Assembly (NCBI GenBank): GCA_947176505.1 | Contig: CAMWQW010000009.1 | Location: 84,821 to 148,820 of the forward strand | Direction of reading: 5' to 3' | DNA length: 64,000 bases | DNA from: an uncultured Lachnospiraceae bacterium | GTDB taxonomy: Bacteria; Bacillota; Clostridia; Lachnospirales; Lachnospiraceae | Part shown: in pieces, positions 2,561 to 47,391 of the stretch | How the letters are laid out: the number at the start of each line of letters is the position of its first letter | Numbering within the stretch: the first letter of the stretch is position 1 | Notes under the pieces: generated by a model | The model's database searches: none | What the model saw: only the letters and a program-made list of their open reading frames with translations | Told to the model about the DNA's origin: nothing | Made by a program: the position numbers and the translations under genes

Positions 2561-2626
2561 CATTTTCTGCAATATAATGCCATTTTCTGCAAAGATACTT
2601 GGAAATATCTTTTTTTGTGGTATTAT
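2561..2626 (+). promoter_or_regulatory. Agr-1 type LytTR promoter, site 1 of 10
   Basis: Two TTTTCTGCAA repeats at 2563-2572 and 2583-2592 (20 bp apart) are followed by a TATTAT -10 at 2621-2626, which starts 29 bp after the end of the second repeat. The reverse complement (TTGCAGAAAA) resembles binding half-sites of AgrA/ComE-class LytTR regulators. It drives the matrixin and lipoprotein genes. Confidence 0.8.
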
Positions 2627-2682
2627 ATGTTATGTAAACCACGCCGTGGTATGCCAAAATAATATTGAGAGGAGAATTTCAT

Positions 2683-3321
2683 ATGAAAATCAAAAGAGTA
2701 TGGATTAGAGCAGTAGGAATGTTGTTAATGTGTGGGTTGTTGATGTCAAATAACTTAACAGCATATGCGTATGTAACAGGAGGATACACTCTTAATGGCG
2801 GAGTTGGTAATTATGGATATACAAATCGCTATTATTATGTGGATAGCTCATGTACATCAACTATGACCTCTGATATAGCAACTGCTTGGAGTGAATGGAT
2901 TCACACAACGTCATCAATGGGTATAACTACACCTATTTCGGTTTTAAAGACAACGACGCAAAAAGATAGTGTATTTGATTTTTATTATAAAAGTCAATAT
3001 GAAGTGGAAGATGGTGTGTTTGGAGTAACACTATTTTGGAGTCGTCAGACACAAGTTTCGACAACCGGATATATGCCTACAAGTTCTAACTGGGGATGGA
3101 CACAAATTATATTAAATAGTCCTAATTATTTGACTTTATCCAGAAATGATAATGGATTAAATCGGCAAAAAGGTGTTTGTGCGCACGAAATTGGTCATGC
3201 GATGGGACTATTTCATGTGGATACAAATCCGAGGACATTAATGTATCCATATGGTGATACAATACAAGTTGATAAATGTACAAGTGATGAATTAAATGGA
3301 ATCAACTCATTATATAAATAA
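2683..3321 (+). CDS. Secreted matrixin-like zinc metalloprotease
   Basis: This 212-residue protein has a signal peptide (positive N-terminus, hydrophobic MLLMCGLLM, cleavage near AYA). The mature part carries the metzincin zinc motif HEIGHAMGLFH (HExxHxxGxxH, about residues 167-177) followed by a Met-turn (TLMYP), as in peptidase family M10A. It should be an exported zinc endopeptidase. The start is ATG 2683, with GGAG about 8 bases upstream; a TTG at 2665 is in frame but lacks a site. It is the first gene after circuit-1 site 1, so it is probably made at high cell density, like agr-controlled exoproteases elsewhere. The lipoprotein 17 bases downstream is probably co-transcribed. Substrate unknown. 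Confidence 0.85.
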   Translation: MKIKRVWIRAVGMLLMCGLLMSNNLTAYAYVTGGYTLNGGVGNYGYTNRYYYVDSSCTSTMTSDIATAWSEWIHTTSSMGITTPISVLKTTTQKDSVFDFYYKSQYEVEDGVFGVTLFWSRQTQVSTTGYMPTSSNWGWTQIILNSPNYLTLSRNDNGLNRQKGVCAHEIGHAMGLFHVDTNPRTLMYPYGDTIQVDKCTSDELNGINSLYK

Positions 3322-3338
3322 CAGGGAGGTATAAAAGG

Positions 3339-4148
3339 ATGAAAAAATTGTTACTAAGTATTTTGGTTGTTTTTATGCTCGGCAGTTTTACAGCGTGTGG
3401 AGAGCAAACTAATGAATCAATAATATCTTCTCATAATGCTTCTTTTGAATCTGAAACGACTGTAAATGATGATGTTGCTAATGAAAGTATGGTGCCGGAA
3501 TTGAAAGATAATACTGTTCAATTCAATAATTCCTTTGTTATTGAGGGAAAGACGATTATACAAGATATGGCAGCAGCAGCGGATTTTGCAGTAATATATC
3601 CCGATTTGGAATCAGTATATAATGGAGCGACAAATGTTGTAGTTGGAGAAGTCACTAATATTCAGTATACAGATGATGAGGCTATACCAAGAACTATATA
3701 TTCATTTGCCGTTGCAGAAACTTTAAAAGGGGATATTGAAGAAAATAGCTTAATAAGTATCAGCGAATCAAATGGTTATGTGAGAATGAGTACATTTATT
3801 GAAACTTATGGTACGGCTCATTTTGAGGATATTACAGATGAAGAAATATCAAATGGGATTATATTGCAATCATTGGGTGGTGCTCCGTTGCCGGAAGTTG
3901 GAGAACAATATATAGTTTTTCTAGGGGAACAAAAGCAGGAAGGCAGAATATGTGGAGCATATGCTGTAATGGGTAATTTTATGGGAAGATATGTTTTGGA
4001 TCAAGACACTAATTTGTATTCAAGATTTTGCCCGAATGAAGATCCAGAATTATATACCATTTATGATTCTGTTACAAGGGCTATTGTAAAGGAGGAACCA
4101 ATGTCACTATCTGAAATCAAAGAAGAGATTTCAAGTTTTGCGGAATGA
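3339..4148 (+). CDS. Putative lipoprotein
   Basis: This 269-residue protein has a lipoprotein signal: basic start MKKLL, a hydrophobic stretch, and the lipobox-like GSFTAC, so the Cys at about residue 20 should be lipidated and anchored outside the membrane. A low-complexity Ser/Glu/Asn-rich linker follows (to about residue 60), then a compact domain with no motif I recognise. GGGAGG stands 9 bases before the ATG. It is the second gene of the circuit-1 site-1 operon, behind the secreted protease. A role in protecting the producer or tethering the enzyme is conceivable but is only a guess from context. A strong terminator follows at 4222-4267. Confidence 0.75.
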   Translation: MKKLLLSILVVFMLGSFTACGEQTNESIISSHNASFESETTVNDDVANESMVPELKDNTVQFNNSFVIEGKTIIQDMAAAADFAVIYPDLESVYNGATNVVVGEVTNIQYTDDEAIPRTIYSFAVAETLKGDIEENSLISISESNGYVRMSTFIETYGTAHFEDITDEEISNGIILQSLGGAPLPEVGEQYIVFLGEQKQEGRICGAYAVMGNFMGRYVLDQDTNLYSRFCPNEDPELYTIYDSVTRAIVKEEPMSLSEIKEEISSFAE

Positions 4149-4221
4149 GATGCTGAATGTGCAATAGATATATTTAAGGCAATTAAAGAAGTTCAGTTAT
4201 AAATGGATAACATATTTAATA

Positions 4222-4267: not shown

Positions 4268-4335
4268 TTAGAAAATAGTTATTAGGAAATAGTTATTAGC
4301 AATTGTAAATGGTGGATTTGTATTGTTTCTGTGTC

Positions 4336-4400
4336 AAATTCTGCAAAATATGGTCGTTTTCTGCAATTTAGTTGACTAATGTGCTAAAGAAAAATAAAAT
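4336..4400 (+). promoter_or_regulatory. Agr-1 type LytTR promoter, site 2 of 10
   Basis: Repeats AATTCTGCAA (4337-4346) and TTTTCTGCAA (4357-4366) lie 20 bp apart. A TAAAAT -10 at 4395-4400 starts 29 bp after the second repeat. It precedes the circuit-1 regulator and kinase, implying positive autoregulation as in staphylococcal agr P2. The leader to the regulator start is about 155 bases. Confidence 0.8.
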
Positions 4401-4561: not shown

Positions 4562-5287
4562 ATGTTCAAAATTGCAATATGTGATGATGAAAATCTTTTT
4601 ACAGAAGAATTAAAAGAACTGATCTCCGGCTATATGATGGAAAAAGGTCTTGTTTTTGAGATAGATACATATAGCTCCGGGGAGGCATTGGTAGAATTAG
4701 GGATTGAGGTAGTACAGTATACTGTCGTGTTTTTGGATATTAATATGGATAAAGTTGATGGCATCAAGACGGCTGAAATGATCAGAAAAGTAAGTCGTGA
4801 AGTTTTTATAGTGTTTGTGACAGCATATGTGGATTATTCGTTGGAAGGATACCGATTAGATGTTGTAAGGTATTTACTAAAGGGTAATGCCAACTTTCAG
4901 AGCAAAGTTAATGAATGTATGGATGCCATTATTGATAAAATGAATTATTCTGTGGCAAAAAGGGAATTTGACTTTAAGGAAGGCAGAAAGGAAATATCAC
5001 TGGAAAGATTATTGTATATTGAGAGCAATCTGCATATACTTGAGTTTCATGTTATGGAGGATACGGAAGCAGTTTATACTATGTATGAAATATTAAATGT
5101 GTTGGATGATATGCTTTCGGAGAATGGTTTTATTAGGACACATCAGAGTTATCTTGTAAATGCAAAACATATCAAGAATGTTGTACGCTGTAAAGTGATA
5201 CTGACAAACGGGGTTGAGTTATCCATACCAAAAGCAAGGTACACGGAAGTGAAGAAAAAGTTTATAGCGTGTCGGGGAGAAGTGTAG
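4562..5287 (+). CDS. LytTR-family response regulator, AgrA-like (circuit 1)
   Basis: This 241-residue regulator has an N-terminal receiver domain (acidic pair in ICDDE, phosphoacceptor Asp in VVFLDINM, conserved Thr in FVTAY) and a C-terminal LytTR DNA-binding domain from about residue 140 (ESNLHILEFH, then HQSYLVNAKHI, then IPKARY). LytTR proteins bind as dimers to direct repeats spaced by two helical turns. This fits the ten TTTTCTGCAA pairs in the window, one of which lies before this gene. The start is ATG 4562, with AAAGGAGG upstream and the receiver starting at once (MFKIAICDDE); a GTG at 4481 would add an unlikely extension. Adjacent to its kinase. Confidence 0.92.
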   Translation: MFKIAICDDENLFTEELKELISGYMMEKGLVFEIDTYSSGEALVELGIEVVQYTVVFLDINMDKVDGIKTAEMIRKVSREVFIVFVTAYVDYSLEGYRLDVVRYLLKGNANFQSKVNECMDAIIDKMNYSVAKREFDFKEGRKEISLERLLYIESNLHILEFHVMEDTEAVYTMYEILNVLDDMLSENGFIRTHQSYLVNAKHIKNVVRCKVILTNGVELSIPKARYTEVKKKFIACRGEV

Positions 5288-6586
5288 ATGTTTTATTTAA
5301 TGCGGAGTATATTGTTAATATTTATTGAAATAATGTGCTGTAAGATTTTTTATGAAACTTTTGGGAAAGTGCGGTATAAAGGATGGATTAATGTAATACA
5401 ATTTATATTACTTCTTAGCAGTACATGTTTTTTTGTATATGCTTTATCGGGACATTTCTTAATAAGACAGATTGCTGTTATTTTAATATTTTCGGTCTTT
5501 ATGCTTTGGCATGTTAAAATTAGCCTGAAAAAATCCTTTGTGTTAGCTATTTTATTTGATGCGCTGTTGCTTGCAATGGATTCTCTAGTATTCTTGATTA
5601 TGGGTTGGTTGTCTTTAGACATGAAAATATCAGAGCAGCAACACGCAATGGCTTCTGTATTGGCGTATCTGCTTGTAAAAGTAATACTGTTCTTCCTTAT
5701 TCTTGTTATAAGGAAGCAGTTTGCAAAAAAATCAATGGAAATGATGTTAGATACAGAGTGGTTAAGGTTTCTGTTTTTTCCTGTTTTTACCATAGCAGTT
5801 ATTTCTGTAATGTTATCTGTTTTTGAATATGTACAGACAGTAGAGCAGGCAAATTTGCTTGCAGTCATTGCATTTGGAATAGTGGGAATGAATATTCTTG
5901 TCTTTTATCTGATTAACGATATTATGGAAAGAGAAGTTAAGATGCATGAAAACAAGGTTTTTCAGATTCAGGCAAAAAACCAGTTGGAAATGTACAGGTC
6001 CATCTCTGAAAACTTTGATAACCAAAAAAGAAAGACGCACGAATATAAAAACCAGATTTCATGTATAGAATCCTTACTGGATAAAAAGCAGTATTTAAAA
6101 TTAGAAGAATATGTAAAAAAGATTTATGGTTCACTGAATAATGAGCCGGATGCCATTAACACCAATAATGTAATCGTAAATGCCATACTCAATACAAAGT
6201 ACCAAGAGGCAGAAGCAAAGGGAATTGTTTTTGTATTTAGGGTGAATGATCTTTCAGAGCTGAATATGAAAGATGAGGATGTAGTTACTATCCTTGCCAA
6301 TCTTCTGAACAATGCCATTGAAGCATGTGAGACGTGTGAGAATAAAAAGGTAATTAAGTTTAAGTTCTTTAAAGAGGATGATAATATAATCATTGCGGTT
6401 AAAAACACATTTAATTATGATATTGTATATGAAAATGGAGAAATAAAATCTACAAAAGTATCAAACGTGGATGAACATGGTGTAGGGATTAAGAATGTGT
6501 TAAAAATCATTGAGAAATATGGTGGCTCATATGTCATTGAAGATAAGAATAAAGAATTTTTCTTCTCAATTATTATTCCTGCATGA
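5288..6586 (+). CDS. Sensor histidine kinase, AgrC/GHKL type (circuit 1)
   Basis: This 432-residue membrane kinase has six or seven hydrophobic segments in residues 1-215. A cytoplasmic part follows with a candidate phosphorylated His in KTHEYKNQISC, an N-box (NLLNNAIEACE) and a G-box (GVGIKNVLKIIEKYGG), typical of HPK10/AgrC kinases. It should sense the peptide made by AgrD-1/AgrB-1 and phosphorylate the regulator encoded immediately upstream (ATG directly follows the regulator's stop). Family behaviour is established; ligand specificity is inferred from gene order. Transcription probably ends before site 3, although no strong hairpin is visible in the 6587-6625 gap. Confidence 0.92.
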   Translation: MFYLMRSILLIFIEIMCCKIFYETFGKVRYKGWINVIQFILLLSSTCFFVYALSGHFLIRQIAVILIFSVFMLWHVKISLKKSFVLAILFDALLLAMDSLVFLIMGWLSLDMKISEQQHAMASVLAYLLVKVILFFLILVIRKQFAKKSMEMMLDTEWLRFLFFPVFTIAVISVMLSVFEYVQTVEQANLLAVIAFGIVGMNILVFYLINDIMEREVKMHENKVFQIQAKNQLEMYRSISENFDNQKRKTHEYKNQISCIESLLDKKQYLKLEEYVKKIYGSLNNEPDAINTNNVIVNAILNTKYQEAEAKGIVFVFRVNDLSELNMKDEDVVTILANLLNNAIEACETCENKKVIKFKFFKEDDNIIIAVKNTFNYDIVYENGEIKSTKVSNVDEHGVGIKNVLKIIEKYGGSYVIEDKNKEFFFSIIIPA

Positions 6587-6626
6587 ATGCAATATTAAAT
6601 AGTTATCTCAAAACTATTTTGTGCCG

Positions 6627-6690
6627 TTTTCTGCAAAAAAAGTCTGTTTTCTGCAAATGGGCTTGATTTTTCACATATATAATTCATACT
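6627..6690 (+). promoter_or_regulatory. Agr-1 type LytTR promoter, site 3 of 10
   Basis: Two perfect TTTTCTGCAA repeats at 6627-6636 and 6647-6656 lie 20 bp apart. The hexamer at the standard position (6685-6690) is CATACT, a weaker -10. It drives agrB and agrD of circuit 1, closing the feedback loop. Confidence 0.77.
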
Positions 6691-6711: not shown

Positions 6712-7296
6712 ATGATAGAGAAGATGGCATTAAAGATCGTCAATCGAATGGAAATAGAGAAGCTAATAAGCAAATCAAGCTGTGAATATTACGAATACGC
6801 TTTAATAGCTATGGTTGAAAATATTGTAACAGTTGTAACTATCTTGCTTTTAGGGGTATTTTTTGAGAAATTCCTACATACTGTTTGTTTTTGGGCGTTC
6901 TTTATTTCATTAAGGAAGCGGACAGGAGGTTTTCATGCGAATAAGTTCTGGCAGTGCTATTTAGGTACAGTCATAACATATATTGCGGTTATACAGGCTA
7001 TACCTATGCTTTGTGGAATTCCGACTGTCATGTATGGAATGCTGTTTCTTGCAATAATTTTAATTTATGTAATGGGAACAATAAACCATCCCAATATGGA
7101 TATGAATAAAAGCGAATTGCAGGAGTCTAAGAAAGCGGCAAGGCTGATTGTTATAATGGAAGTAATGATAATTGCTGTCTTGATCTATTTGAAAGCTGAT
7201 ATTCTATATATTGGCTATATGGCGGTAGCTATCATATTATGTGCATTCTTGATGTGTTTGGCAAAAATTATAAAACAGGAGGTATGTATAAAATGA
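6712..7296 (+). CDS. agrB: AgrB-like signal-peptide-processing membrane protein (circuit 1)
   Basis: This 194-residue polytopic membrane protein of the AgrB family carries the conserved cytoplasmic motif RKRTGGFHANKFWQC with the His and downstream Cys that form the cysteine-protease pair. About five hydrophobic segments follow. AgrB trims the C-terminal tail of AgrD and closes the thiolactone ring. AAAGGAGG precedes the ATG. Its stop overlaps the agrD start region by 4 bases. It is transcribed from site 3, 125 bases after the kinase gene. Unlike staphylococcal agr, regulator and kinase come first and have a separate promoter. Confidence 0.93.
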   Translation: MIEKMALKIVNRMEIEKLISKSSCEYYEYALIAMVENIVTVVTILLLGVFFEKFLHTVCFWAFFISLRKRTGGFHANKFWQCYLGTVITYIAVIQAIPMLCGIPTVMYGMLFLAIILIYVMGTINHPNMDMNKSELQESKKAARLIVIMEVMIIAVLIYLKADILYIGYMAVAIILCAFLMCLAKIIKQEVCIK

Positions 7297-7442
7297 AAGA
7301 AAACAGAAAAATCAAAAAAACTGCACTCAAGGTAGTAGAGAGGATTGTCCGCAATGAAGTTAAAAAAGATATATGGGGAGATCCGCCTCTTTGCATTGGG
7401 ATTGGTCATCAGCCGAAAAGACCGAAGAAGAAAGAGGATTAA
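7293..7442 (+). CDS. agrD: AgrD-like autoinducer precursor, predicted ring CIGIG (circuit 1)
   Basis: This 49-residue peptide directly follows agrB (ATG 7293, 4-base overlap, AGGAGG about 6 bases upstream). It has a basic amphipathic N-terminal half, then DPPLCIGIG, then the tail HQPKRPKKKED. In Clostridium perfringens AgrD the ring CLWFT is followed by HQPEEP. By alignment the processing site lies after the second Gly, giving a five-member thiolactone ring Cys-Ile-Gly-Ile-Gly with an exocyclic tail ending ...PPL. The ring is unusually small and unbulky, since most known rings have aromatic or large hydrophobic residues. Prediction only. Confidence 0.85.
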   Translation: MKENRKIKKTALKVVERIVRNEVKKDIWGDPPLCIGIGHQPKRPKKKED

Positions 7443-7546: not shown

Positions 7547-7550
7547 GCCG

Positions 7551-7614
7551 TTTTCTGCAAAAACGGACCACTTTCTGCAAGGGTAATTGACCTTTAACCA
7601 TATTTTGCTATTAT
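7551..7614 (+). promoter_or_regulatory. Agr-1 type LytTR promoter, site 4 of 10
   Basis: Repeats TTTTCTGCAA (7551-7560) and CTTTCTGCAA (7571-7580) lie 20 bp apart, with a TATTAT -10 at 7609-7614. A TTGACC at 7587-7592 may act as -35. It drives the first CcpM-type cluster, after a leader of about 220 bases. Confidence 0.82.
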
Positions 7615-7839: not shown

Positions 7840-8652
7840 ATGAATTTAGGCTTAGATTATTTAACTAATAATTATTACATGAATCAAATAAACCAACAAA
7901 ATAAAGTGGCAGAACAAAGCAAGGATATTGGTTTTAATGGGGTTTTATCTTCAAAAGCAGTGGAGAGTGCTGCAAGAACGGAATGTAGTTTCAAAGATAT
8001 GTGGCAGGCGAGATTTCCGGGAGCCTACTATCATGTGATGGATGCTTATAAAATTTCAACAGGTTCATGGGGAAGATATGATTTCCCGCATGAGCAGTTT
8101 TTTAATGATAATGTGGATGAGTCTGTTTTGGATTGGAAACCAACAGGAGCAGAACCTAAATTGACAGATAAATCAGTGCAATCAAGAATAGATTCAACAC
8201 TTGGAAAAAAAGCAATTGTTGTGCCTCCGGCATTAGAGGAAAAAATGAAGAATGATCCCACATTGGCACAAAAAGTAATGGAAAAAGTGGAAAGATTTAT
8301 AGTGAATGATGAAGCATCATTGCCGCCGGGGAGGATATATTCTTGTGTAGTCATATTAGATGAGAATGGAGAAATTGCACATGCGGCTGGCTCAAGTGGA
8401 GGTGGTAATATAGTCGGTCCAACAGAGGAGGAACAGAGGCAGTTTGAAGCAGAGCAGGCTGAAAAGCGGAAGCGGAGAGCCGAATATATGCGGATATTAG
8501 AGGAAAGTTCTCAAAAACGTGTTGAAATAGAGCAGGAGAATCGTACAGTGCAACTTGAATCAGAATTGCTGAAGGACAATGAACATCATTATCAGCAACA
8601 AAAAGCATATGATAAGGCGATAGAAAGCTATGAGAAAGGTACATTGTTATAG
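7840..8652 (+). CDS. Unknown protein, first gene of peptide cluster 1 (DUF6033-like)
   Basis: This 270-residue soluble protein has no signal peptide or membrane segment. AAAGGAG precedes the ATG. Residues about 115-185 (DPTLAQKVMEKVERF then ILDENGEIAHAAG) match the 226-residue protein at 14938, which opens cluster 2 (DPQTAAKYEKVV then VIDKNGKVSYW). Both end in a charged Glu/Lys/Arg-rich coiled-coil-like tail (here from about residue 195). I believe they belong to the DUF6033-type families of Lachnospiraceae, function unknown. Both stand as first gene after a circuit-1 box, so a role linked to the modified peptide (scaffold, delivery or immunity) is possible, inferred from position only. Confidence 0.7.
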   Translation: MNLGLDYLTNNYYMNQINQQNKVAEQSKDIGFNGVLSSKAVESAARTECSFKDMWQARFPGAYYHVMDAYKISTGSWGRYDFPHEQFFNDNVDESVLDWKPTGAEPKLTDKSVQSRIDSTLGKKAIVVPPALEEKMKNDPTLAQKVMEKVERFIVNDEASLPPGRIYSCVVILDENGEIAHAAGSSGGGNIVGPTEEEQRQFEAEQAEKRKRRAEYMRILEESSQKRVEIEQENRTVQLESELLKDNEHHYQQQKAYDKAIESYEKGTLL

Positions 8653-8903: not shown

Positions 8904-8957
8904 AATTATCCTATGTATAATAGGTTAATTAATATTATGGAAAGGAGAATGCGGGGT

Positions 8958-9149
8958 ATGAAGAATTTGGGTAAAAAAATATCAACAGAAGCAGGAACTT
9001 TAGTTTCTTATGCTTGTAGCTGCTGGTGCTATGCGCCGGATTGCCAATGTTTGAATCCTTCGACTAATCCTACAGGATCAGTGGATTATGCACAGAAGCA
9101 GTCAAACAACATTCAGAACAATTCCAAGACGCTGGTAATCTACATGTAA
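8958..9149 (+). CDS. Cys-rich RiPP precursor, Clo7bot-like (cluster 1)
   Basis: This 63-residue peptide starts with the leader MKNLGKKISTEAGTLVSYA. A dense cysteine block CSCWCYAPDCQC (five Cys in 12 residues) follows, then an Asn/Ser/Gln-rich tail ending VIYM. The GTLxxYACxC arrangement is that of the Clo7bot family of Cys-rich peptides, substrates of the radical SAM maturase CcpM encoded next. Expected modification is thioether (sactionine-type) cross-linking. ATG 8958 is chosen because AAAGGAG lies 10 bases upstream; in-frame ATGs at 8937 and 8949 are too near the site. A very strong terminator follows, which should keep precursor mRNA in excess over maturase mRNA. Confidence 0.85.
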   Translation: MKNLGKKISTEAGTLVSYACSCWCYAPDCQCLNPSTNPTGSVDYAQKQSNNIQNNSKTLVIYM

Positions 9150-9210: not shown

Positions 9211-9237
9211 GAAAATTATGGAAAGGTTTGATTGAAT

Positions 9238-10653
9238 ATGGATATTCCTTTTGTACATTTTATTGAAACTCACAATGATTTGTATTTATTTGATGTTAAT
9301 ACAAATATGATTAGTAAAGTAAATGAGAGAATCGGCAAATATCTTTCAGGTCATGGGAAAAAAGAGGACTTGAATAATGAAGATTTAATGGTAATTGAAA
9401 ATATGAAAAGTATGGGGATGTTGTGTCCCGATCAGATTGAAAGAATTGAACATCCTATGTCGGACTTTATTGAGGATATACTTGAAAACAGTATGAACAG
9501 GCTAACTATTCAGGTGACACAAAACTGTAATTTTAGATGCGAATACTGCGTGTATTCAGGAAGTTATTACAATAGAGTGCATAATAATAAAAGAATGGGT
9601 TGGGATACTGCAAAAGCAGCATTGGACTTTCTGGAGCAGCATAGTAGAAATTCTTCAGAGATTAATGTTAGCTTTTACGGTGGAGAACCATTGTTGGAAA
9701 TGGATTTGATAAAGAGATGTGTGGACTATTGTCGTATGATTTTTAAGCGGAAGAAAGTTTCGTTCAATTTAACGACAAATGCCTCGCTTTTGTCTGATGA
9801 GGTTATTAAATATTTTGAAAAAGAGAAGTTCTCGGTCATGGTCAGTCTTGATGGTCCGCAGGAGGTTCATGATAAGAACAGAACATTTGCGGATGGAAAA
9901 AGAGGTACATTTAATACTGTAATTGAACGGATTGAGAGGATAAGGGAGATTGCACCGGATTTATTAGCCAATGTTACGTTTAATGCAGTCTTAGATGATG
10001 AAAATGATTTTTCTTTGATCAACCAGTATTTTTCACAAGAGCCTATTATTAAAGACATATTTGTTAGTGCCAATTATGTGAATGAAACAAACAGGAAAGA
10101 TAAAATAGTGCAAACTAATCAGAAAAATTATATAGAGATTAGTAACCAAAGATTTATCGGTTTAATGTATTTGATGAACAGAGTGTCAAGAGATAAAGTG
10201 TCAAAATTAGTAGTACGGGAGCTGTCAGATATAAAGGAGACAATTAGTAAGAGAAAAGTGTCTAAGAATGTAATGCAGCCAATAAATCATCCAGCGGGAC
10301 CTTGTTTACCGGGGGTTCAAAGACCTTTCGTTAATGCATATGGAAAATTATTTCCATGCGAGAGAGTAAATGAAACATGTAAAGATATGTGTATTGGAAA
10401 TATTTATGATGGGTTTGATATTGAAGCCGTAAAGCGTTTCCTTAATGTAGGGCAGGTTACAGAGGAAAATTGTAAACGGTGTTGGGCATTTAATTTCTGT
10501 ACCCAGTGTGGGGTGACATCGGATAATGGTGAGAAAATTGCATCAGAAGCAAGACTGGAAAAATGTGAACGTGTTCGTAATCATGTAGACAATCTGTTAA
10601 AGGATTATATTGTATTAAAAGAGTGCGGATGTGATTTTACGCAATCTATATAA
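9238..10653 (+). CDS. ccpM: Radical SAM/SPASM Cys-rich peptide maturase CcpM (cluster 1)
   Basis: This protein of about 470 residues has an N-terminal peptide-recognition region (residues 1-95). The radical SAM core shows CNFRCEYC (CxxxCxxC binding the SAM-cleaving 4Fe-4S cluster, about residue 102), the GGEP motif (SFYGGEPLLEM) and TTNAS. A C-terminal SPASM domain for auxiliary clusters begins at GPCLPG, with FPCERV and CKRCWAFNFCTQC. It should install thioether cross-links in the precursor encoded upstream. ATG 9238 is preferred, but the in-frame TTG 9232 is better spaced from GAAAGG. A close paralogue lies at 15911 and a more distant one at 26932. Confidence 0.9.
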   Translation: MDIPFVHFIETHNDLYLFDVNTNMISKVNERIGKYLSGHGKKEDLNNEDLMVIENMKSMGMLCPDQIERIEHPMSDFIEDILENSMNRLTIQVTQNCNFRCEYCVYSGSYYNRVHNNKRMGWDTAKAALDFLEQHSRNSSEINVSFYGGEPLLEMDLIKRCVDYCRMIFKRKKVSFNLTTNASLLSDEVIKYFEKEKFSVMVSLDGPQEVHDKNRTFADGKRGTFNTVIERIERIREIAPDLLANVTFNAVLDDENDFSLINQYFSQEPIIKDIFVSANYVNETNRKDKIVQTNQKNYIEISNQRFIGLMYLMNRVSRDKVSKLVVRELSDIKETISKRKVSKNVMQPINHPAGPCLPGVQRPFVNAYGKLFPCERVNETCKDMCIGNIYDGFDIEAVKRFLNVGQVTEENCKRCWAFNFCTQCGVTSDNGEKIASEARLEKCERVRNHVDNLLKDYIVLKECGCDFTQSI

Positions 10654-10669
10654 TTTGGAGGGACTGAAA

Positions 10670-11644
10670 ATGAAAGAGAAAGCTATTTTATTTCCATGTG
10701 ACAGGGAGTTTTTGACACTTGCAGAGTATATTGAATTTGATAGATATGAGATAAGTGGGTTTTGTGTATTGGAAGATTCCAATGTTATTGAAAATGAAGT
10801 AGAAAATATTCCAGTTTTTGACATAGCAGATATTGACTACGGGTTATTTGATGATATTATTCTTATTGATAAAGCATACCATTCACATGCTTTTATAGAA
10901 GATAGTATTAGGCATGGAAAAAAGGTTATTGATGTTGCTGAAATTCAAAAAATCGGAAATGATAAATTTAATGACATATCAGAAGAACAAACCATAAATG
11001 TTCCAGTGGTTTTTGTAGCAGGCATTACTCATTATACAGAAAAATTTCATGTACAGCTTGTATTAAGAAAACACTTGTTGGATTATGGATATAAAGTTAG
11101 CCAGATCGGAAGCAAACAGTATAGTGAATTATTTGGCTTCCATTCTTTTCCATCATTTATGATTGAGCCTATGGATAATACAGAAAGGATACTCTTGTTT
11201 AGAAAATATGTAAAATATATTGAGCAGGAGGAACAGCCTGACATAGTTGTTATTGGCATTCCTGGAGGTATAATGGCAGTAAATAAAAAACATCACTTTG
11301 ACTTTGGATTGACAGCATACATGGTTTCACAAGCGGTAGAGCCTGATTATACCATTATGAGTATGCTTTATGGCAAAAATTATACAAAGGATCAGCTAGA
11401 GGAAATAAATCAGACTTGTAGGTATAAATTCAATTTTGAGATTAATAGCTTTCATTTATCAAATGCCTTACTTGATCCGGCAAGTTTAAAGCATGAAAAT
11501 CTGACTTTTATTAAAATGGGAAATAAGAAATACTTTAATAAAGTGGAGAGATTATATGATTTTTTAAATCCTGAAGATATGGATAAGGCATTTGAAGGTA
11601 TGATTACAGAATTGACATCGTATAATGTCAATCAGATTTTTTGA
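10670..11644 (+). CDS. Peptide maturation system protein, TIGR04066 type (cluster 1)
   Basis: This 324-residue soluble protein follows ccpM with a 16-base gap and a TTGGAGGG site. It belongs to the family that accompanies CcpM in Clostridia (TIGR04066), biochemical role unknown. The N-terminal part (1-105) looks like a small Rossmann-type domain (KAILFPCDREFLTLAEY). A second domain starts at PVVFVAGITHYTEKFHVQL and continues GYKVSQIGSKQYSELFG and IVVIGIPGGIM. This order of strands and helix resembles a P-loop NTPase in which the GKT loop has been lost (THYTEKF). The second domain is also recognisable in the C-terminal half of the next protein, the subtilase. Confidence 0.8.
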   Translation: MKEKAILFPCDREFLTLAEYIEFDRYEISGFCVLEDSNVIENEVENIPVFDIADIDYGLFDDIILIDKAYHSHAFIEDSIRHGKKVIDVAEIQKIGNDKFNDISEEQTINVPVVFVAGITHYTEKFHVQLVLRKHLLDYGYKVSQIGSKQYSELFGFHSFPSFMIEPMDNTERILLFRKYVKYIEQEEQPDIVVIGIPGGIMAVNKKHHFDFGLTAYMVSQAVEPDYTIMSMLYGKNYTKDQLEEINQTCRYKFNFEINSFHLSNALLDPASLKHENLTFIKMGNKKYFNKVERLYDFLNPEDMDKAFEGMITELTSYNVNQIF

Positions 11645-11652
11645 GGTATGGT

Positions 11653-13083
11653 ATGGATAAAGGTGTCAAAGTTGCAATTATAGATAATGGCATTAATGAG
11701 CTTCTTTTGGCAAAAGGGTTAGAAAAATCTGTAGCTGTTGAAAAAGGTATTTGCGTAGCTGATACAAAAAACATAGATCAGCAACAGTTCCAACATGGGA
11801 CAAACTGTGCAATGATAATTGAGAAGTATTGTCCAGATTGTGATTTGATTAGTATAAGAATTTTAGATGAAAATGGAAAAGGTGGAGTTGCAAGTTTTCA
11901 ACCAGCGTTGGATTGGTGTTATAAAAATCATATAAGGCTGATTAATCTAAGTTTAGGAACAGTAGACTTTCGGGATTGTGAAAAATTAAGATGCCTGATT
12001 AACGAATATGTTGCAAAGGGAATGATTATAATAGCGGCAACAGCTAATTCGGGCTTTGTTTCATATCCTGCCAGTTTTATGAATGTGATTGGTGTAGCAA
12101 CTACAGACAGTCCATTAGACTATTGTAAAGATTATATGCAAATGGGTATAGATACTGTTGTACCGTCTGTACATGCAATTAAAATATATGATATGGAAAT
12201 GAACACATCATTGAGTAACAGTTATGCAGCTCCATATATAAGCGCATTGATTGCTAATAAGTTAAAGGTAGATAGTACGTTAGATATAAAGAAGTTAAAG
12301 TTATATGCAAGTGAGCAAAGCCATTTGCAAATGGTAAAGGGGATATATGAGCCGGATTGGGTTTATAGGGCATATGTGTCGGGCAGAGGGACTACAAGCA
12401 GGGTAGAGTATTATTTTGAAACGGTTATAGGGACGTATGATGAAATACAGGGGAAAATAGACACTGTAATAGCCTATTCTATGGCAGAATTGGAAAATTT
12501 GGATATAAGCAATAAGCATTTAATATATCTTGGAAACGAGGATATTCATAATATAGATGTTCAGGGATTCATTTGGAGCAAGGAAACAAGACAACGACAG
12601 ATTAAACATAATTATTATCAGGGACATGGTCTTGAAATTCCGGTAGTGATACTGGCAGTAGAAGATGCCATAGATAAGTTCTATGTACTCACGGAATTAA
12701 AGAGGGCATTTGCCATTGATGGTTATAATGCATATACGATAGGAATGGAGCCGGAGTGTGTATTATATGCATTAGAATATATGCCGGAGCCTGTATCAGA
12801 TATTGGTGCTTGGAAAAATTTTATAGAAAGCCAGACTTTTTATAAACAGAGTGATTTGGTCATATGGTGTATACCAGTGGAAGATCAAGATAAATATATG
12901 AAAGTATATCCTGATTGTGACGTGCAGATCGTTCTTTACAATGAGGGAGATAATAATATAGTGGAGTTCTCCTTTGAGGGAGAAAAGGTGGAGAAAAAAA
13001 TATCAGAACCGATTGACAGGAAAGATGTTGAGGAAATATATCATATTATAGAAACGAAACTGACGGAGGATGAAGATGGATAA
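11653..13083 (+). CDS. Subtilisin-like (S8) peptidase with TIGR04066-like C-terminal domain
   Basis: This 476-residue protein has an N-terminal S8 domain with an intact triad: Asp in VAIIDNGIN, His in FQHGTNCAM, Ser in SNSYAAPYIS, and the oxyanion Asn in TANSGFVSYPAS. There is no signal peptide or propeptide, so it should work in the cytoplasm, probably removing the leader from the modified precursor. The C-terminal half is not subtilase. VVILAVEDAIDKFYVLTELK then GYNAYTIGMEPECVLYAL aligns by eye with the core of the TIGR04066-type protein encoded just upstream. ATG 11653 is preferred (GAGG 6 bases upstream). The 3' end overlaps the ABC gene by 8 bases. Confidence 0.85.
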   Translation: MDKGVKVAIIDNGINELLLAKGLEKSVAVEKGICVADTKNIDQQQFQHGTNCAMIIEKYCPDCDLISIRILDENGKGGVASFQPALDWCYKNHIRLINLSLGTVDFRDCEKLRCLINEYVAKGMIIIAATANSGFVSYPASFMNVIGVATTDSPLDYCKDYMQMGIDTVVPSVHAIKIYDMEMNTSLSNSYAAPYISALIANKLKVDSTLDIKKLKLYASEQSHLQMVKGIYEPDWVYRAYVSGRGTTSRVEYYFETVIGTYDEIQGKIDTVIAYSMAELENLDISNKHLIYLGNEDIHNIDVQGFIWSKETRQRQIKHNYYQGHGLEIPVVILAVEDAIDKFYVLTELKRAFAIDGYNAYTIGMEPECVLYALEYMPEPVSDIGAWKNFIESQTFYKQSDLVIWCIPVEDQDKYMKVYPDCDVQIVLYNEGDNNIVEFSFEGEKVEKKISEPIDRKDVEEIYHIIETKLTEDEDG

Positions 13084-14833: not shown

Positions 14834-14839
14834 GTGCCG

Positions 14840-15618: not shown

Positions 15619-15672
15619 TTTGATATGTTATTTTTTAATGACATAAAAATTGTAGAGTAGGAGGTGAGATAC

Positions 15673-15889: not shown

Positions 15890-15910
15890 TTGTAACATAT
15901 GGGAGGAATA

Positions 15911-18426: not shown

Positions 18427-18437
18427 GGAGTGGTAAT

Positions 18438-21929: not shown

Positions 21930-21942
21930 TCCTTTTGCTCCG

Positions 21943-42760: not shown

Positions 42761-42818
42761 AACTATGTTCTAATAGTAAATAAATATTTAATATATATTA
42801 GATAAGGGGAATTAGTCA

Positions 42819-42881
42819 TTTTCTGCATAATAGAGACGTTTTCTGCAAGAGGGGTTGTTTTTACAACGATAAATTGATAAA
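42819..42881 (+). promoter_or_regulatory. Agr-1 type LytTR promoter, site 7 of 10
   Basis: Repeats TTTTCTGCAT (42819-42828) and TTTTCTGCAA (42839-42848) lie 20 bp apart. The best -10 is GATAAA at 42876, 28 bp after the second repeat, the only site deviating by one base. It drives the secreted protein gene at 42934. Confidence 0.72.
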
Positions 42882-42933
42882 TTATAAAAAATACAGCCGC
42901 CTTGTTTCCATTGTAGAAAGAGAGGTAATACCT

Positions 42934-43395
42934 ATGAAGAAATTCTTTTCAATGCTCATGTGTTTTGCGCTTTGTGCAATGCTGATTACACCGATGTCAG
43001 TATCTGCGGCTGAATTAGATTCAGTGTCAAATGATGTTACAGTTGAAAGCGCAACATATGCATCTAGCTATTTTTCGGGACAGACAGGGAGAATGAACTC
43101 GCTGAATGGTATGGAGTCTGCGGCTTTTAATATCTCATCTGGCTCCATAAATAGTGAAGCAAAAGTAACAAAGGTAACATTAAACGTAACAGTAAGCAAC
43201 GGAAGTTCAGGGTTTTATATTATCGTTGAAGATCCTTATGGGAATTATGCGGAAAAATATGTTTCCAGAAGTGGCGAAATTACATTTACTGAATTTAATG
43301 GACTGTACGCAAAGGGAACATGGAAAGTATCAATTCAGACAGTTGGAACGGTTTCCACGGCAACTGCTCGAATGAGGGTTGATTATACATACTAA
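42934..43395 (+). CDS. Secreted P-domain-like protein under circuit-1 control
   Basis: This 153-residue protein has a signal peptide (MKKFFSMLMCFALCAMLITP, cleavage near VSAAE). The mature beta-rich domain shows ITFTEFNGLYAKGTWKVSIQ, the FNG...GTWxxxI signature shared with the protein at 18856 and with proprotein-convertase P-domains. The two paralogues also share NISxGS and the Leu-Asn-Val strand. It carries no catalytic domain and could be a secreted binding or structural protein. ATG 42934 follows AGAGAGG. A terminator at 43417 follows, so it is a one-gene unit. Confidence 0.78.
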   Translation: MKKFFSMLMCFALCAMLITPMSVSAAELDSVSNDVTVESATYASSYFSGQTGRMNSLNGMESAAFNISSGSINSEAKVTKVTLNVTVSNGSSGFYIIVEDPYGNYAEKYVSRSGEITFTEFNGLYAKGTWKVSIQTVGTVSTATARMRVDYTY

Positions 43396-43470: not shown

Positions 43471-44025
43471 TTAAACGGTCATATTTAATTCTTTGTTACC
43501 GCTTATTGTACTGATGCTGTTTTGCAACAAAGTATCATCAGCGAAGATTTCATCAAGTATTTCATGTGGAATAGGCTGCCCGGATGTCCATGAGGGTATT
43601 CTTTCTTTAACTGATTGATTTACTCTATGGGCGAGTTCAAGATGTAATTGGCTTACTGTCCATGTGGCGGAAGAACGATCTTTCGCATTTAAAGTTTTTA
43701 CATAGGAATGTATTTTGTCATAATATGCATTATGTTCTGAAACGCTGTCACCAGACATTCCGCCATACTTATAGAACTCTTTTTTTACGCCCTCGTAAAC
43801 GTGTTGTTTCATTTCATCAGATACATTGATGATCTTTTTCCAATCACTCCTGCCTGTAATGCGCATCCCCTCCACACCGTAGGAATTTTTGCGGCGTCCT
43901 GAGAGTAAATCCGATATAGCTTTTGCGTTTGGATTACTGCTTTGAGTTCCATTTGTTGCCAGAAAGGTATTTTTACCTGTTTGCGAGAATAACTGTGAGA
44001 AAATATTACTTGTACCTATATACAT
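43471..44025 (-). CDS. Unknown protein, agr-1 regulon
   Basis: This 184-residue soluble protein has a start chosen at ATG 44025 (AAAGGAGG upstream). A Ser/Asn/Thr-rich N-terminal 45 residues (MYIGTSNIFSQLFSQTGKNT) resembles in style the N-termini of the proteins at 7840 and 14938. A helical domain with several Tyr and His (VYEGVKKEFYKYGG) follows. No known domain is recognised. It is transcribed alone on the minus strand from circuit-1 site 8, with a very short leader. Possibly a further member of the cluster-opening protein group; the sequence link is weak. Confidence 0.6.
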   Translation of the reverse strand: MYIGTSNIFSQLFSQTGKNTFLATNGTQSSNPNAKAISDLLSGRRKNSYGVEGMRITGRSDWKKIINVSDEMKQHVYEGVKKEFYKYGGMSGDSVSEHNAYYDKIHSYVKTLNAKDRSSATWTVSQLHLELAHRVNQSVKERIPSWTSGQPIPHEILDEIFADDTLLQNSISTISGNKELNMTV

Positions 44026-44050
44026 TTTTATTACCTCCTTTCTTGCAGTC

Positions 44051-44114
44051 ATTATATCATTTTAAGAGATCTTATCAATATCTCATGCAGAAAATGGCTA
44101 CTTTATACAGAAAA
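44051..44114 (-). promoter_or_regulatory. Agr-1 type LytTR promoter, site 8 of 10 (minus strand)
   Basis: Read on the minus strand, TTTTCTGTAT (44114-44105) and TTTTCTGCAT (44094-44085) lie 20 bp apart. A consensus TATAAT at 44056-44051 starts 29 bp after the second repeat. It is the only site of the ten on the minus strand and shows the geometry is orientation-specific to its gene. Confidence 0.82.
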
Positions 44115-44238
44115 TGACCTTGCAATGTTCAAATTTAATCTTTTCGGGTTTATTAGAACAGGTATATATTAGTTAAAATTAATAGTTAGTTATAAAAATT
44201 ATGGATAAGAAGTTATACTACTGAAAAGGAAAAGGCGA

Positions 44239-44480: not shown

Positions 44481-44519
44481 AACAGTTTTACCATTAAATG
44501 TGGTAAAGCTGTTTTATTT
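44481..44519 (+). terminator. Terminator before promoter site 9
   Basis: AACAGTTTTACCA pairs with TGGTAAAGCTGTT (one wobble pair), followed by TTATTT. It lies immediately before the site 9 repeats. Confidence 0.75.
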
Positions 44520-44522
44520 CCG

Positions 44523-44586
44523 TTTTCTGCTTAAAAAGACTATTTTCTGCAAGGGGTATTGATTCTGCTTTATAAGATGTTATATT
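44523..44586 (+). promoter_or_regulatory. Agr-1 type LytTR promoter, site 9 of 10
   Basis: Repeats TTTTCTGCTT (44523-44532) and TTTTCTGCAA (44543-44552) lie 20 bp apart, with a TATATT -10 at 44581-44586. It drives the radical SAM/MBL pair after a leader of about 135 bases. Confidence 0.82.
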
Positions 44587-44728: not shown

Positions 44729-46294
44729 ATGATTACTTATTCAAAGAAACAAGAGTATTTAAAAAGGCTGATGGATTTGGAGATTCCAGAGATTTATCAG
44801 ACATTTCCTGAAGATTTTCATGTTGATGTAAATGGTTGGTCATTTATAGATTATGAGGAAACAAAGTACATAGAGGTACAACTAACAGACAGTGAGGTGG
44901 CGGAACTAAAAGAACATGGTTTGTTAGATAAAGTTTGCCATATTTCCGGCAATATTTACAAGGTAAAGCGTTTAAGGACATTGGATATTGAATTGGCATC
45001 AGATAGTGCGATTGATGCGATGAATACGTTGAAAAAACGTTTTGAACAAGGTGAGTTTAAAGGACAGAATGATGTAATTGATATGGATGCACTTAAAAGA
45101 GAGTTTGCCGGAATGTACAGGACTACTTGTACGCAGCGTTGCCCACACTGCTTTAATCAGGAAGATGATTTTTATGTAAGAAAAATTCTTGACGGGCACA
45201 AGCTGTTAAAATGGTCTGATATGAAACAGATTTTGTCAGAGGCTAAAAAAATAGGATTGGAGTCTGTCAAGTTTCTTGGAATTGGCGAGATTTTTAAGAT
45301 TCCAGATTTGTTCAATATCTTAGATGATCTGCGGCAAATGGATATTAAAATAGGTATTTTCACGAAAGGTACAGCATTAGGAGACGATAAGATCGCCAAA
45401 GATTGCGGATATGAAGGCGTTGAAACAGCAGAAGAATTAGTTCGCAGGTTATCCGAATATGACAATGTAAGCATATTATTAGGCGGAAATTCATTTGTGC
45501 CAGAAATTCAGGATCGTATGGTAGGATGCGGCAAGGATGGAGGAGTGACAAGCTATACAGAGAAAAGAGATTGCGCATTAAAACTACTTGTAAAATATGG
45601 TTTCAATGATCCTGCAAAGGGAAAAAGATTGGCGCTTGTGGCTGCTCCGGTTACACCAGAGGTTAGTGATGAAACGGTGGTTATGTATGAGTGGGCTATG
45701 CATAGGAATATAACTGTAATCACTATTCCTACTATGGTTAGTGGAAAAGGAACAGATGAGTTAGAATGGCTTTTGGGACAATTTGAAGCAAACAAAGAAT
45801 TGATTTCTCGCTATGATGAGAGTAATATCATGACAAGGGAAGAAAGATATGTTAGATGGTTGGCTGATTTTTATTCAGATATTTATATGTCAGCTATTAA
45901 CATGGGAATAACTGATTTAGATAAACTAAAGAAGGAAGGAATTTCTGGTTATGCAGGGGCAGCAAAATGTCAGCAGATGCACAACGGTATGTATATAAGA
46001 CTACCGGGAACTGTTCAGGAGTGTCCGGGGCGTTGTGTTGGTGCTGAAATAGCAGATGATATTCGGGACATGTGCCTGTTGGCTACTTGGATTGGCAGCA
46101 AAAATTATGACAGGAAAGATGATTGCAGGGCGTTGTGTGCGGTTAAGATGAAAAATCTCACAGGTACGGACGTGAAGGTGTGCGATTGCTGTACTGTATA
46201 TGACAATGTTGGTTCAATGCCACTGGAATTAGAAAGAGATACTCTTATAGCTTTAGAGCAGAAAATGTCAAGAGGAGCCGAAGAAAATGTATGA
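44729..46294 (+). CDS. Radical SAM enzyme with Cys-rich C-terminus, agr-1 regulon
   Basis: This 521-residue enzyme has an N-terminal domain of about 130 residues. The radical SAM motif is CTQRCPHC (CxxxCxxC, about residue 134), followed by LGIGEIFKI in place of the usual GGEP. The C-terminal region is rich in Cys (CQQMH; QECPGRCVG; DDCRALC; KVCDCCTVYD), suggesting SPASM/twitch-like auxiliary clusters. It is not closely related to the three peptide maturases here. It forms a two-gene operon with an MBL-fold protein (8-base overlap). No Cys-rich precursor lies next to it. The substrate could be a peptide or a small molecule. Confidence 0.85.
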   Translation: MITYSKKQEYLKRLMDLEIPEIYQTFPEDFHVDVNGWSFIDYEETKYIEVQLTDSEVAELKEHGLLDKVCHISGNIYKVKRLRTLDIELASDSAIDAMNTLKKRFEQGEFKGQNDVIDMDALKREFAGMYRTTCTQRCPHCFNQEDDFYVRKILDGHKLLKWSDMKQILSEAKKIGLESVKFLGIGEIFKIPDLFNILDDLRQMDIKIGIFTKGTALGDDKIAKDCGYEGVETAEELVRRLSEYDNVSILLGGNSFVPEIQDRMVGCGKDGGVTSYTEKRDCALKLLVKYGFNDPAKGKRLALVAAPVTPEVSDETVVMYEWAMHRNITVITIPTMVSGKGTDELEWLLGQFEANKELISRYDESNIMTREERYVRWLADFYSDIYMSAINMGITDLDKLKKEGISGYAGAAKCQQMHNGMYIRLPGTVQECPGRCVGAEIADDIRDMCLLATWIGSKNYDRKDDCRALCAVKMKNLTGTDVKVCDCCTVYDNVGSMPLELERDTLIALEQKMSRGAEENV

Positions 46295-47165
46295 GTTAAT
46301 AAAAGTAGGGGATCAAAGTTATTATATTGAATCACCTGCAAGAATAGGTGTCTATGTAGAAAATGAAACAGAGGCATATCTGATTGACAGCGGCAACGAT
46401 AAGGACGCTGGAAGAAAAGTCAAACAGATTTTAGAAACAAATGGCTGGACTTTGAAAGCCATTATTAACACACACTCCAATGCAGATCATATTGGTGGAA
46501 ATCAGTATTTGCAAAAGCAGACAGGATGTAAAGTATTTAGCAGAGGCATAGAGGCAGCTTTTACACAATATCCTGTTTTAGAACCTGCCTTTTTGTTTGG
46601 AGGATTTCCTCTTAAAGAATTGCAGCATAAATTTCTTATGGCGAAGCCGAGCGAAGTTACAGAAATTTGTGATGCGGCTTTTCCAAAAAGTTTGTCTGTG
46701 ATTGATTTGCCGGGACATTTTTTTGATATGATTGGGATTAAGACTCCGGACGGGGTAGCCTTTATAGCAGATTGTTTAAATAGTAAGGAAACATTGGATA
46801 AATACAAGTTTACGTTCATATATGATGTGGAGGCATATCTGCATACTTTGGAACAGGTAGGGAAGATGCAGGCAAAGATGTTCGTTCCGGCTCATGCAAA
46901 GCCAACAGAGGATATAAAGCAGTTGGTGGAGTATAATATATCCAAAATTTATGAAAATGCGGAATTTCTTATTGCCCTGTGTGAAGAACCAATGAATTTT
47001 GAAACAATATTACAGCAGGTTTTCACTCAGTACAATCTTGTGATGAACTATGAACAGTATGCGCTATTGGGAAGTACAATAAAATCATATCTTTCATGGT
47101 TAAAAAATTCTGAAAAGTTGGTAACGGAGTTTTCGGATAACATGTTACTATGGGAAAAAGCGTGA
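46287..47165 (+). CDS. Metallo-beta-lactamase-fold hydrolase paired with the radical SAM enzyme
   Basis: This 292-residue MBL-fold protein has the metal motif THSNADHIGGN (HxxxDH type, about residue 59; the usual first H-x-H reads H-S-N), then LPGHFFDMIGI, FIADCLN and VPAHAKPT giving further metal ligands. The C-terminal 80 residues are helical, as in the glyoxalase-II-like group. The gene overlaps the radical SAM gene by 8 bases, so the two act together. PqqE/PqqB is a known radical SAM/MBL pairing, but nothing shows this is a PQQ-like pathway. A long hairpin follows. Confidence 0.85.
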   Translation: MYELIKVGDQSYYIESPARIGVYVENETEAYLIDSGNDKDAGRKVKQILETNGWTLKAIINTHSNADHIGGNQYLQKQTGCKVFSRGIEAAFTQYPVLEPAFLFGGFPLKELQHKFLMAKPSEVTEICDAAFPKSLSVIDLPGHFFDMIGIKTPDGVAFIADCLNSKETLDKYKFTFIYDVEAYLHTLEQVGKMQAKMFVPAHAKPTEDIKQLVEYNISKIYENAEFLIALCEEPMNFETILQQVFTQYNLVMNYEQYALLGSTIKSYLSWLKNSEKLVTEFSDNMLLWEKA

Positions 47166-47207
47166 TGGGCATAAAGAATAATTGAAAATTAGATAAAAAC
47201 ATCGGGT

Positions 47208-47257
47208 ATATTAAAAGACCAAACAGTGGATGGATTCTTAGTTTGGTCTTTTAATAT
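47208..47257 (+). terminator. Long perfect hairpin after the radical SAM/MBL operon
   Basis: ATATTAAAAGACCAAAC (47208-47224) pairs perfectly with 47241-47257. The stem contains the T-rich arm; no separate T-run follows. Confidence 0.7.
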
Positions 47258-47327
47258 GGGAAATAGTTTACAATATAACAGTCTATATTTTCGTAATATG
47301 TCGTATCGAGCATTGTTTAACTTTCCA

Positions 47328-47391
47328 TTTTCTGCAATAAAAGGTCGCTTTCTGCAAGGGTTATTGTGCAAAAAATATTGTTTGCTATAAT
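47328..47391 (+). promoter_or_regulatory. Agr-1 type LytTR promoter, site 10 of 10
   Basis: Repeats TTTTCTGCAA (47328-47337) and CTTTCTGCAA (47348-47357) lie 20 bp apart. A consensus TATAAT -10 at 47386-47391 starts 29 bp after the second repeat. The first frame behind it is a 26-codon micro-ORF with a strong ribosome site. Confidence 0.83.

Follow-up and report, generated by a model that had tools for sequence, protein, structure and literature searches.

Ten places in a 64,000-nucleotide stretch of DNA from an uncultured Lachnospiraceae bacterium, called the window here (C9:84821-148820, a piece of contig C9 of the 4.17-Mb source genome), carry the same pair of short direct repeats just ahead of a gene or operon, raising the question of whether one regulator controls them all. 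Among the units behind these box pairs are an AgrA-like response regulator, named R1, with its sensor kinase, an agrB-agrD unit, and two CcpM-type cassettes for ribosomally synthesized and post-translationally modified peptides (RiPPs). We consider it highly likely, judging from sequence, that the locus encodes a self-contained Agr-type peptide quorum circuit together with its regulon, with R1 activating the box promoters; R1 would very probably switch on more than ten promoters through this one shared box pair. The sites in the window are the following.

2559..2626, plus strand: site 1, box pair and promoter, before a secreted matrixin-like protease and a lipoprotein-like gene
4333..4400, plus strand: site 2, box pair and promoter, before R1 and its kinase; same place in relatives
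6623..6690, plus strand: site 3, box pair and promoter, before agrB-agrD; same place in relatives
7547..7614, plus strand: site 4, box pair and promoter, before a DUF6033-like gene and CcpM RiPP cluster a
14836..14903, plus strand: site 5, box pair and promoter, before a DUF6033 gene and CcpM RiPP cluster b
21939..22006, plus strand: site 6, box pair and promoter, before the gene 22150-22518, convergent with agrB2
42815..42882, plus strand: site 7, box pair with unclear -10, before the secreted protein 42874-43395
44051..44118, minus strand: site 8, box pair and promoter, before a DUF3879 gene
44519..44586, plus strand: site 9, box pair and promoter, before radical SAM and metallo-beta-lactamase-fold genes
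47324..47391, plus strand: site 10, box pair and promoter, before the secreted protein 47472-47960

All ten sites named in a preliminary description of this DNA were recovered at their coordinates and on their strands, each with two TTTTCTGCAA-like repeats whose starts lie 20 bp apart; the full repeat reads GYCRTTTTCTGCAA. A -10-like hexamer had been placed 29 bp after the second repeat in nine of them and was found there in nine of the ten. For the tenth (42819), a -10 placed at 28 could not be reproduced, and the sequence instead offers TAAATT at 22 and 30 and weaker matches at 32 and 39. The site at 6627 offers two candidates, the CATACT at +29 and a perfect TATAAT at +22 that rivals it. 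A point absent from the preliminary description is that a TTG starts at +7 in eight window sites, at +6 in 4337 and at +12 in 21943. This TTG is a predicted -35 element about 16 bp before the -10, giving an ordinary -35/-10 promoter with the repeat pair just upstream; in nine of the ten window sites (TTG at +6 or +7) two direct repeats about two helical turns apart thus stand directly before the -35.

R1 relatives were fetched from named genomes, yielding 63 loci. The 30 closest (L067-L096, 43-98% identity, two partial) form the R1-family set, and the other 33, with at most 32% identity over most of the protein or short pieces of 43-53%, the distant LytTR set. With the 18-base core of the pair (gap of 11 between the repeats) and up to three mismatches, the source genome gave 50 matches against 7 for the reversed pattern, and the five exact matches all lay on C9. 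A 34-bp matrix built from 105 distinct sites found 108 sites of at least 20 bits in 585 kb of own and R1-carrying loci, compared with none in the reversed sequence and none in one Markov shuffle. Since this matrix had been trained partly on the tested sites, the scan was repeated with one trained on 91 sites from outside the source genome. The preliminary description had proposed a genome scan with a matrix of the ten sites themselves; the foreign-only matrix returned exactly these ten in the window, at 31.7-50.3 bits. Elsewhere it gave three sites just upstream of the window (C9 80010 and 82785, plus strand, and 84121, minus strand), one on another contig (C27 46009, plus strand) and a doubtful one (C12:92310, 28 bits), where no TTG or -10 was seen; the whole-genome step used the consensus, and the matrix scored the loci around 30 of its 50 matches. 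The source genome has 14 strong sites, 13 of them on C9 within about 52 kb.

The spacing is narrow without being absolute. The source genome holds 14 pairs at lag 20, plus one overlapping pair at 30, and its strong sites all fall one base short of the period of 21 that is usual for LytTR (12 bp between 9-bp repeats). Among 114 pairs in R1 relatives, 93 lie at lag 20, 14 at 21 and 2 at 22, with none in a reversed-sequence control, and a period of 20 as an absolute trait was rejected because of these pairs at 21 and 22. Columns that played no part in the selection are conserved over the 105 sites (G at -4 in 82%, C at -2 in 94%, C at 18 in 88%), and so are the TTG columns 36-38 (96, 72 and 62%), followed by a TATAAT-like peak at 58-63. 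Of the 91 foreign sites, 54 have the TTG at 36 and another 15 have it at 35; 59 show a -10-like hexamer at position 58. The geometry was also sought with no box letters at all, as 13-bp repeats upstream of a TTG/-10 pair. In 27 R1 loci, lag 20 gave 62 matches, spread over 22 of the loci, against 1 in one shuffle, and lag 21 gave 8 against 0; in the 33 distant LytTR loci the corresponding counts were 1 against 2 and 5 against 0.

These boxes lie around, and in part directly before, the genes of the putative circuit.

4562..5287, plus strand: R1, AgrA-like response regulator (Response_reg and LytTR, by Pfam), proposed from co-occurrence as the binder of all boxes
5288..6586, plus strand: AgrC-like sensor kinase with GHKL ATPase (Pfam)
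6712..7296, plus strand: AgrB peptide protease/exporter (Pfam, E 4.7e-33)
7293..7442, plus strand: AgrD signal precursor with a Cys-started variable ring followed by an HQPKRPK tail (compared by eye with 20 relatives; start chosen by eye)

The regulon had been attributed to the regulator at 4562-5287, and the distribution of the boxes agrees with this. Repeat pairs at lag 20-22 occur in 28 of the 30 R1-family loci and in none of the 33 distant ones. Across 397 genomes of the family, 49 contain the core within one mismatch, and scoring the spacer columns alone (at 58 of the core places, covering all 49 genomes) splits them cleanly into 12 positive and 37 negative. Every one of the 12 carries an R1 relative (39-100% identity), and five of the 37 hold one of only 37-41% identity. 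The box is present in 11 of 14 genomes whose R1 reaches at least 49% identity and in 1 of 383 others (Fisher P = 5e-18 with relatedness ignored; as the genomes are related, this is not a strict probability). In one relative, R1 itself has an in-frame stop and the boxes are retained (L073:10001-10723).

Further from the source genome, the boxes appear to change with the regulator. When 30 loci with diverged R1 relatives were scored, the best matrix sites resembled variant pairs such as AATTCTGCC or ATTTCTGCT, and genome G108 shows a variant pair, seen by eye, beside its R1 (L143; matrix score -0.6). The letter-free test over 17 loci with R1 relatives of 38-49% identity gave 8 matches at lag 20 compared with 0.4 per shuffle, one of them (L151:517) not box-like; box-like variant pairs were found in five of these loci (L145, L151, L152, L156, L158). 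Boxes may thus diverge in step with R1, although matrix scoring imposes the 20-bp lag and lag-free support comes from five of the 17 loci.

The gene set around R1 is that of an Agr-type system, with an AgrB-family protein, a GHKL kinase and a LytTR regulator by Pfam and a small Cys-containing open reading frame behind agrB, judged by eye, in the window and in all 20 relatives' loci that were compared. The HQPKRPK tail is present in 21 of 21 AgrD sequences (the window and 20 relatives, two identical), and the rings, which start with Cys, vary (CIGIG, CSGIF, CMGIG, CLGIY, CAGFF and others), a variation that looks like pherotypes; CIGIG would be the ring of this strain. Of 108 sites, 104 are followed by a gene, and that gene is R1 at 18 of them and AgrB at 12; the remaining 4 have none. 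Sequence supports the feedback loop of the preliminary description, as the regulator-kinase operon and agrBD are both boxed, here and in many relatives.

The sites, their geometry, their co-occurrence with R1, their conservation and the horizontal transfer discussed below can be read from sequence comparison, and they suggest how the circuit would operate. AgrB would cut and export AgrD, giving a small cyclic (thiolactone) peptide that the GHKL kinase (5288-6586) would sense, and the kinase would phosphorylate R1. Phosphorylated R1 would then bind, as two tandem LytTR domains on one DNA face, to the direct repeats GYCRTTTTCTGCAA with their 20-bp spacing. From this position about 7 bp upstream of the TTG (-35), it would activate a housekeeping-sigma promoter with its -10 at +29. 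The predicted targets include the regulator-kinase operon and agrBD, which would close a positive feedback, and, besides these, the two CcpM-type RiPP cassettes, DUF6033 and DUF3879 proteins, secreted proteins and enzymes.

We also asked whether this module moves. The rpoB gene was obtained from 10 of 11 genomes, and in eight carriers its DNA identity to the source genome is 67-80%, whereas that of R1 is 86-96%, indicating that the module moves between lineages. Two genomes of the same genus gave no R1 match at E 1e-30. Conjugation genes lie at C9:46-66 kb, where a TraG-like ATPase and an NlpC/P60 protein accompany a coupling protein whose gene a group II intron interrupts, and the window adds recombinases:

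50911..55870, plus strand: three large serine recombinases (Pfam)

Conjugation machinery and recombinases, the parts of an integrative and conjugative element, are thus linked to the cargo, and the element itself may be mobile. At L172:3793-8562 the coupling protein gene is split by a group II intron. A search of a plasmid collection found no R1 relative at E 1e-30, and a set of viral contigs gave one weak relative (32%). A phage collection returned four, the best of 92.5% on L175 (MT836337.1). This is an unannotated faecal scaffold named 'Bacteriophage sp.' that carries six strong boxes besides its R1, in all probability bacterial island DNA that was labelled as phage by mistake.

Between the own island and the 30 relatives, homology ends at boxes in 34 of 185 ends, compared with 4.5 expected; with rotated positions the mean was 4.3 and the maximum 29, and 34 was reached in 0 of 2000 rotations. 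Thirteen of the 34 fall on the box of R1 itself, perhaps the trace of a single insertion in the source genome. For six relatives the homology at the C9:80010 box stops at offsets 37-45, which is where the -35 lies or slightly past it. Cargo seems to be exchanged at the promoters, and the module, on a contig with conjugation genes, seems to spread between Lachnospiraceae lineages with exchanged cargo, as the identities suggest. The preliminary description had placed the whole regulon on one mobile island. With 13 sites on the contig that bears the conjugation genes and one on another, this is nearly, not provably, true.

Several observations weigh against R1 as the activator of one mobile regulon. 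Within the source genome, 42819 has no clear -10, 21943 has no TTG at the usual place, and one of the 14 strong sites is on another contig. Two R1-family loci depart from the pattern, L095 (43%) in lacking a box pair and L071 in having its only pair at lag 27, and with the looser core (up to three mismatches) four of the 33 distant loci match once (reversed control, 1). Three of the 14 genomes with R1 of at least 49% (G321, G171, G108) have no box within one mismatch, and in G321 and G171 no variant pair was found in the 3.7 kb scanned. Where R1 is diverged, the matrix itself imposes the 20-bp lag, and the letter-free test turned up no box-like variant pair in 12 of the 17 loci whose R1 relatives have 38-49% identity. 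A ninth carrier, L094, gives no transfer signal (short R1 piece 69%, rpoB 75%). Finally, the loci are related by descent, so that the counts are not independent events.

Could another regulator of the island bind the boxes? R2 (24431-25174), R3 (31957-32673) and a sigma-like protein (20135-20773) all lie among them; R2 and R3 are LytTR regulators, and the protein at 20135 is sigma-70-like, with a relative in 6 of the 30 R1 loci. R2 belongs to a further agr system of the window:

22515..25174, minus strand: second agr system (AgrB2, kinase 2, R2), probably not the box binder

We nevertheless regard binding by any of the three as quite unlikely, given that the boxes co-occur with R1 and that the R1 operon is itself boxed. 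The TTG/TATAAT elements are those expected for the housekeeping sigma. R2 exceeds 40% identity in only three of the 30 R1 loci (87-90%), which reach at most 10 kb to each side, with its kinase or AgrB2 at the edge of two more, and its relatives in the 11 other box genomes reach at most 39%; R3 exceeds 40% in none of the 30. R2 and R3 were rejected as box binders on this rarity in R1 loci and box genomes.

With R1 as the binder, the direction of control may still be questioned, since a near-consensus -10 and a TTG at several sites make basal activity possible and R1 could repress there, or act independently of its phosphorylation, instead of activating on quorum induction. This is unlikely in our view, as the repeats occupy the position upstream of the -35 that is used by the activators VirR (PMC2838878) and SilA (PMC2766830), and a box before agrBD fits positive feedback. 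The excess of homology breaks at boxes (34 of 185) would also suit a mobile repeat or a recombination site with no regulatory role. Such a reading is highly improbable against the fixed position before promoter elements, the gene that follows 104 of 108 sites, the TTG and -10 columns conserved beyond the repeats and the tie to R1, and exchange at promoters would itself explain the breaks. We thus retain R1 as the probable activator of the box promoters.

The cargo behind the boxes comprises the following genes.

2665..3321, plus strand: secreted matrixin-like metalloprotease (Pfam PF00413; signal-peptide-like start)
7840..8652, plus strand: DUF6033-like protein (iterated profile search over loci; alone without Pfam match)
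8913..9149, plus strand: CLI_3235-type RiPP precursor a (NCBIfam TIGR04065, 25.4 bits, just below the curated cut-off of 26)
9232..14782, plus strand: CcpM radical SAM maturase, TIGR04066 protein, subtilase and ATP-binding cassette (ABC) exporter (family profile matches including NCBIfam)
14938..15618, plus strand: DUF6033 protein (Pfam, E 7.4e-40)
15664..15840, plus strand: CLI_3235-type RiPP precursor b (NCBIfam TIGR04065, above the cut-off)
15899..18695, plus strand: CcpM maturase b, TIGR04066 protein and a small protein resembling, by eye and without Pfam match, the acyl-carrier-like one of cluster a
22150..22518, plus strand: protein of unknown function overlapping the 3' end of agrB2
42874..43395, plus strand: small secreted protein (signal-peptide-like N-terminus)
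43471..44052, minus strand: DUF3879 protein (Pfam)
44729..47165, plus strand: radical SAM protein and metallo-beta-lactamase-fold protein (Pfam)
47472..47960, plus strand: small secreted protein (signal-peptide-like N-terminus)

The CcpM maturases match TIGR04068 at 543 and 568 bits (cut-off 500), and the TIGR04066 proteins score above their cut-off, the acyl-carrier-like protein below its own. Of the 104 first genes, 27 begin like a signal peptide when judged by a crude rule; some genes enter this count twice because they follow two boxes. An Rfam scan at gathering cut-offs returned no match. Boxes had been described before every unit that looks like an effector. This does not hold throughout: a cluster at 26878-37398 (radical SAM protein, Cys-rich peptide, ABC protein and M16 peptidase) has no box and its own LytTR/kinase pair (R3), and is probably another regulated RiPP system.

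In the second agr system, a check of small open reading frames on that strand (30-62 aa, with Cys and a ribosome-binding site) gave no AgrD candidate. The box-driven gene 22150-22518 is convergent with agrB2 and overlaps it, an order that recurs in L067, L069, L073, L078 and L082, so that an R1-driven transcript could run antisense into the second agr operon (window 21943-23084).

Besides its signalling genes, the module often carries a companion. Two genes near R1 encode proteins of about 250 residues with a domain that Pfam assigns to the C-terminal domain of the RNA polymerase alpha subunit (alpha-CTD), and a profile of these proteins gave 30 PDB matches up to E 1, of which 29 are alpha subunits (best 2.4e-6). 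Standalone proteins of this kind are encoded at these places:

L031:17290-18060 and 18642-19400, minus strand: alpha-CTD-like proteins
L033:9185-9970 and 10246-10998: alpha-CTD-like proteins
window 1-585, minus strand: alpha-CTD-like protein

They occur in 13 of the 30 R1 loci and in none of the 33 distant loci. At E 1e-25 they are found in 6 of the 397 genomes, four being genomes with both R1 and the box and two shorter pieces without R1, counts by which they are nearly confined to R1 islands; eight of the 12 box genomes have none. One paralogue stands behind a box in the source genome and in 5 of the 13 loci, and in most of the 13 another is divergent from R1; in the source genome a distance of 3.9 kb, containing an IS110 element and the matrixin unit, separates the divergent gene from R1. 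N104-L-G and R75 are invariant in 14 alpha-CTD-like sequences and probably match DNA-contact residues of E. coli alpha. An arrangement of four tandem alpha-CTDs was rejected, as segment profile comparison reached 20% probability at best and supported only the central domain. A possibility that we hold to be rather unlikely is that the island carries its own transcription partner for R1, and that the alpha-CTD-like protein may compete with or replace the polymerase alpha-CTD at box promoters, a feedback at the level of the polymerase; on the boldest reading it would be a decoy or co-activator there. By eye, the stretch that separates the alpha-CTD-like gene from the R1 box shows a conserved GGACTGAAAC-like element, at L067:9633-9780 and at the same place in L069, L070, L078 and L079; it is perhaps an operator for the alpha-CTD-like gene.

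One 34-bp matrix would serve as a portable regulatory code, predicting from sequence alone which genes stand under a peptide signal in some little-studied gut bacteria; the predicted targets include RiPP clusters and DUF6033/DUF3879 proteins of unknown role, and in other species this code is found again alongside other cargo genes. The regulators of about 40-100% identity form, with their boxes, a natural series for the rules of LytTR recognition. The data further suggest that mobile DNA exchanges its cargo at quorum promoters, and quorum transcription may have a new type of partner in the alpha-CTD-like protein.

How does this compare with known systems? We do not claim that the system is absent from print; it was not described among the literature matches listed, none of which combined agr, Lachnospiraceae and LytTR, and the box letters occurred among them in one paper, on CRISPR in Bacteroides. 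VirR of Clostridium perfringens is a LytTR-type regulator. As in our regulon, its targets carry a pair of imperfect direct repeats that lie on the same DNA face and immediately precede the -35, and their relative position is reported to be the same in all direct targets (PMC2838878). The likeness drawn here is one of layout; a difference is that about 52 kb of one contig here hold the regulator, the signal genes and most of the sites. SilA, the LytTR quorum regulator of the streptococcal sil system, likewise uses paired direct repeats, of 10 bp with an 11-bp spacer, at 13 direct targets mostly related to bacteriocins, and its authors suggested rearrangement at bacteriocin genes (PMC2766830). 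Unlike here, its signal is reported to be of the competence-stimulating peptide class (PMC2766830), not processed by AgrB, and its spacer is one base longer.

The preliminary description had called the spacing and sequence of the boxes unlike those known for AgrA or ComE. The 20-bp period is indeed one base short of the usual one, yet within the range described for LytTR Regulatory Systems (LRS), whose repeats are mostly 12 bp apart and in a minority 11 or 13 (PMC6193735). In S. mutans the LRS repeats stand 4-11 bp upstream of the -35, and LRS share autoregulation through paired repeats (PMC6193735); they differ in using a membrane inhibitor protein in place of a kinase and cyclic peptide. With agr of staphylococci and clostridia the locus shares AgrB, AgrD, a GHKL kinase and a LytTR regulator. 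Agr genes in gut and rumen Firmicutes have already been reported, agrA/agrB in 199 rumen genomes (PMC10838665), and in C. acetobutylicum agrBD and agrCA form two operons and Agr controls a lanthipeptide-synthetase-like effector (PMC10301443). The difference is that here many cassette operons share one box and that an alpha-CTD-like protein stands beside R1 in part of the loci. From the tested features that it shares with VirR, SilA, LRS and agr, the system works like, and by those features is, an Agr/LytTR quorum regulon, apparently set apart by a box of mostly 20-bp period, by the way it clusters and spreads, by homology breaks at promoters and by its companion protein.

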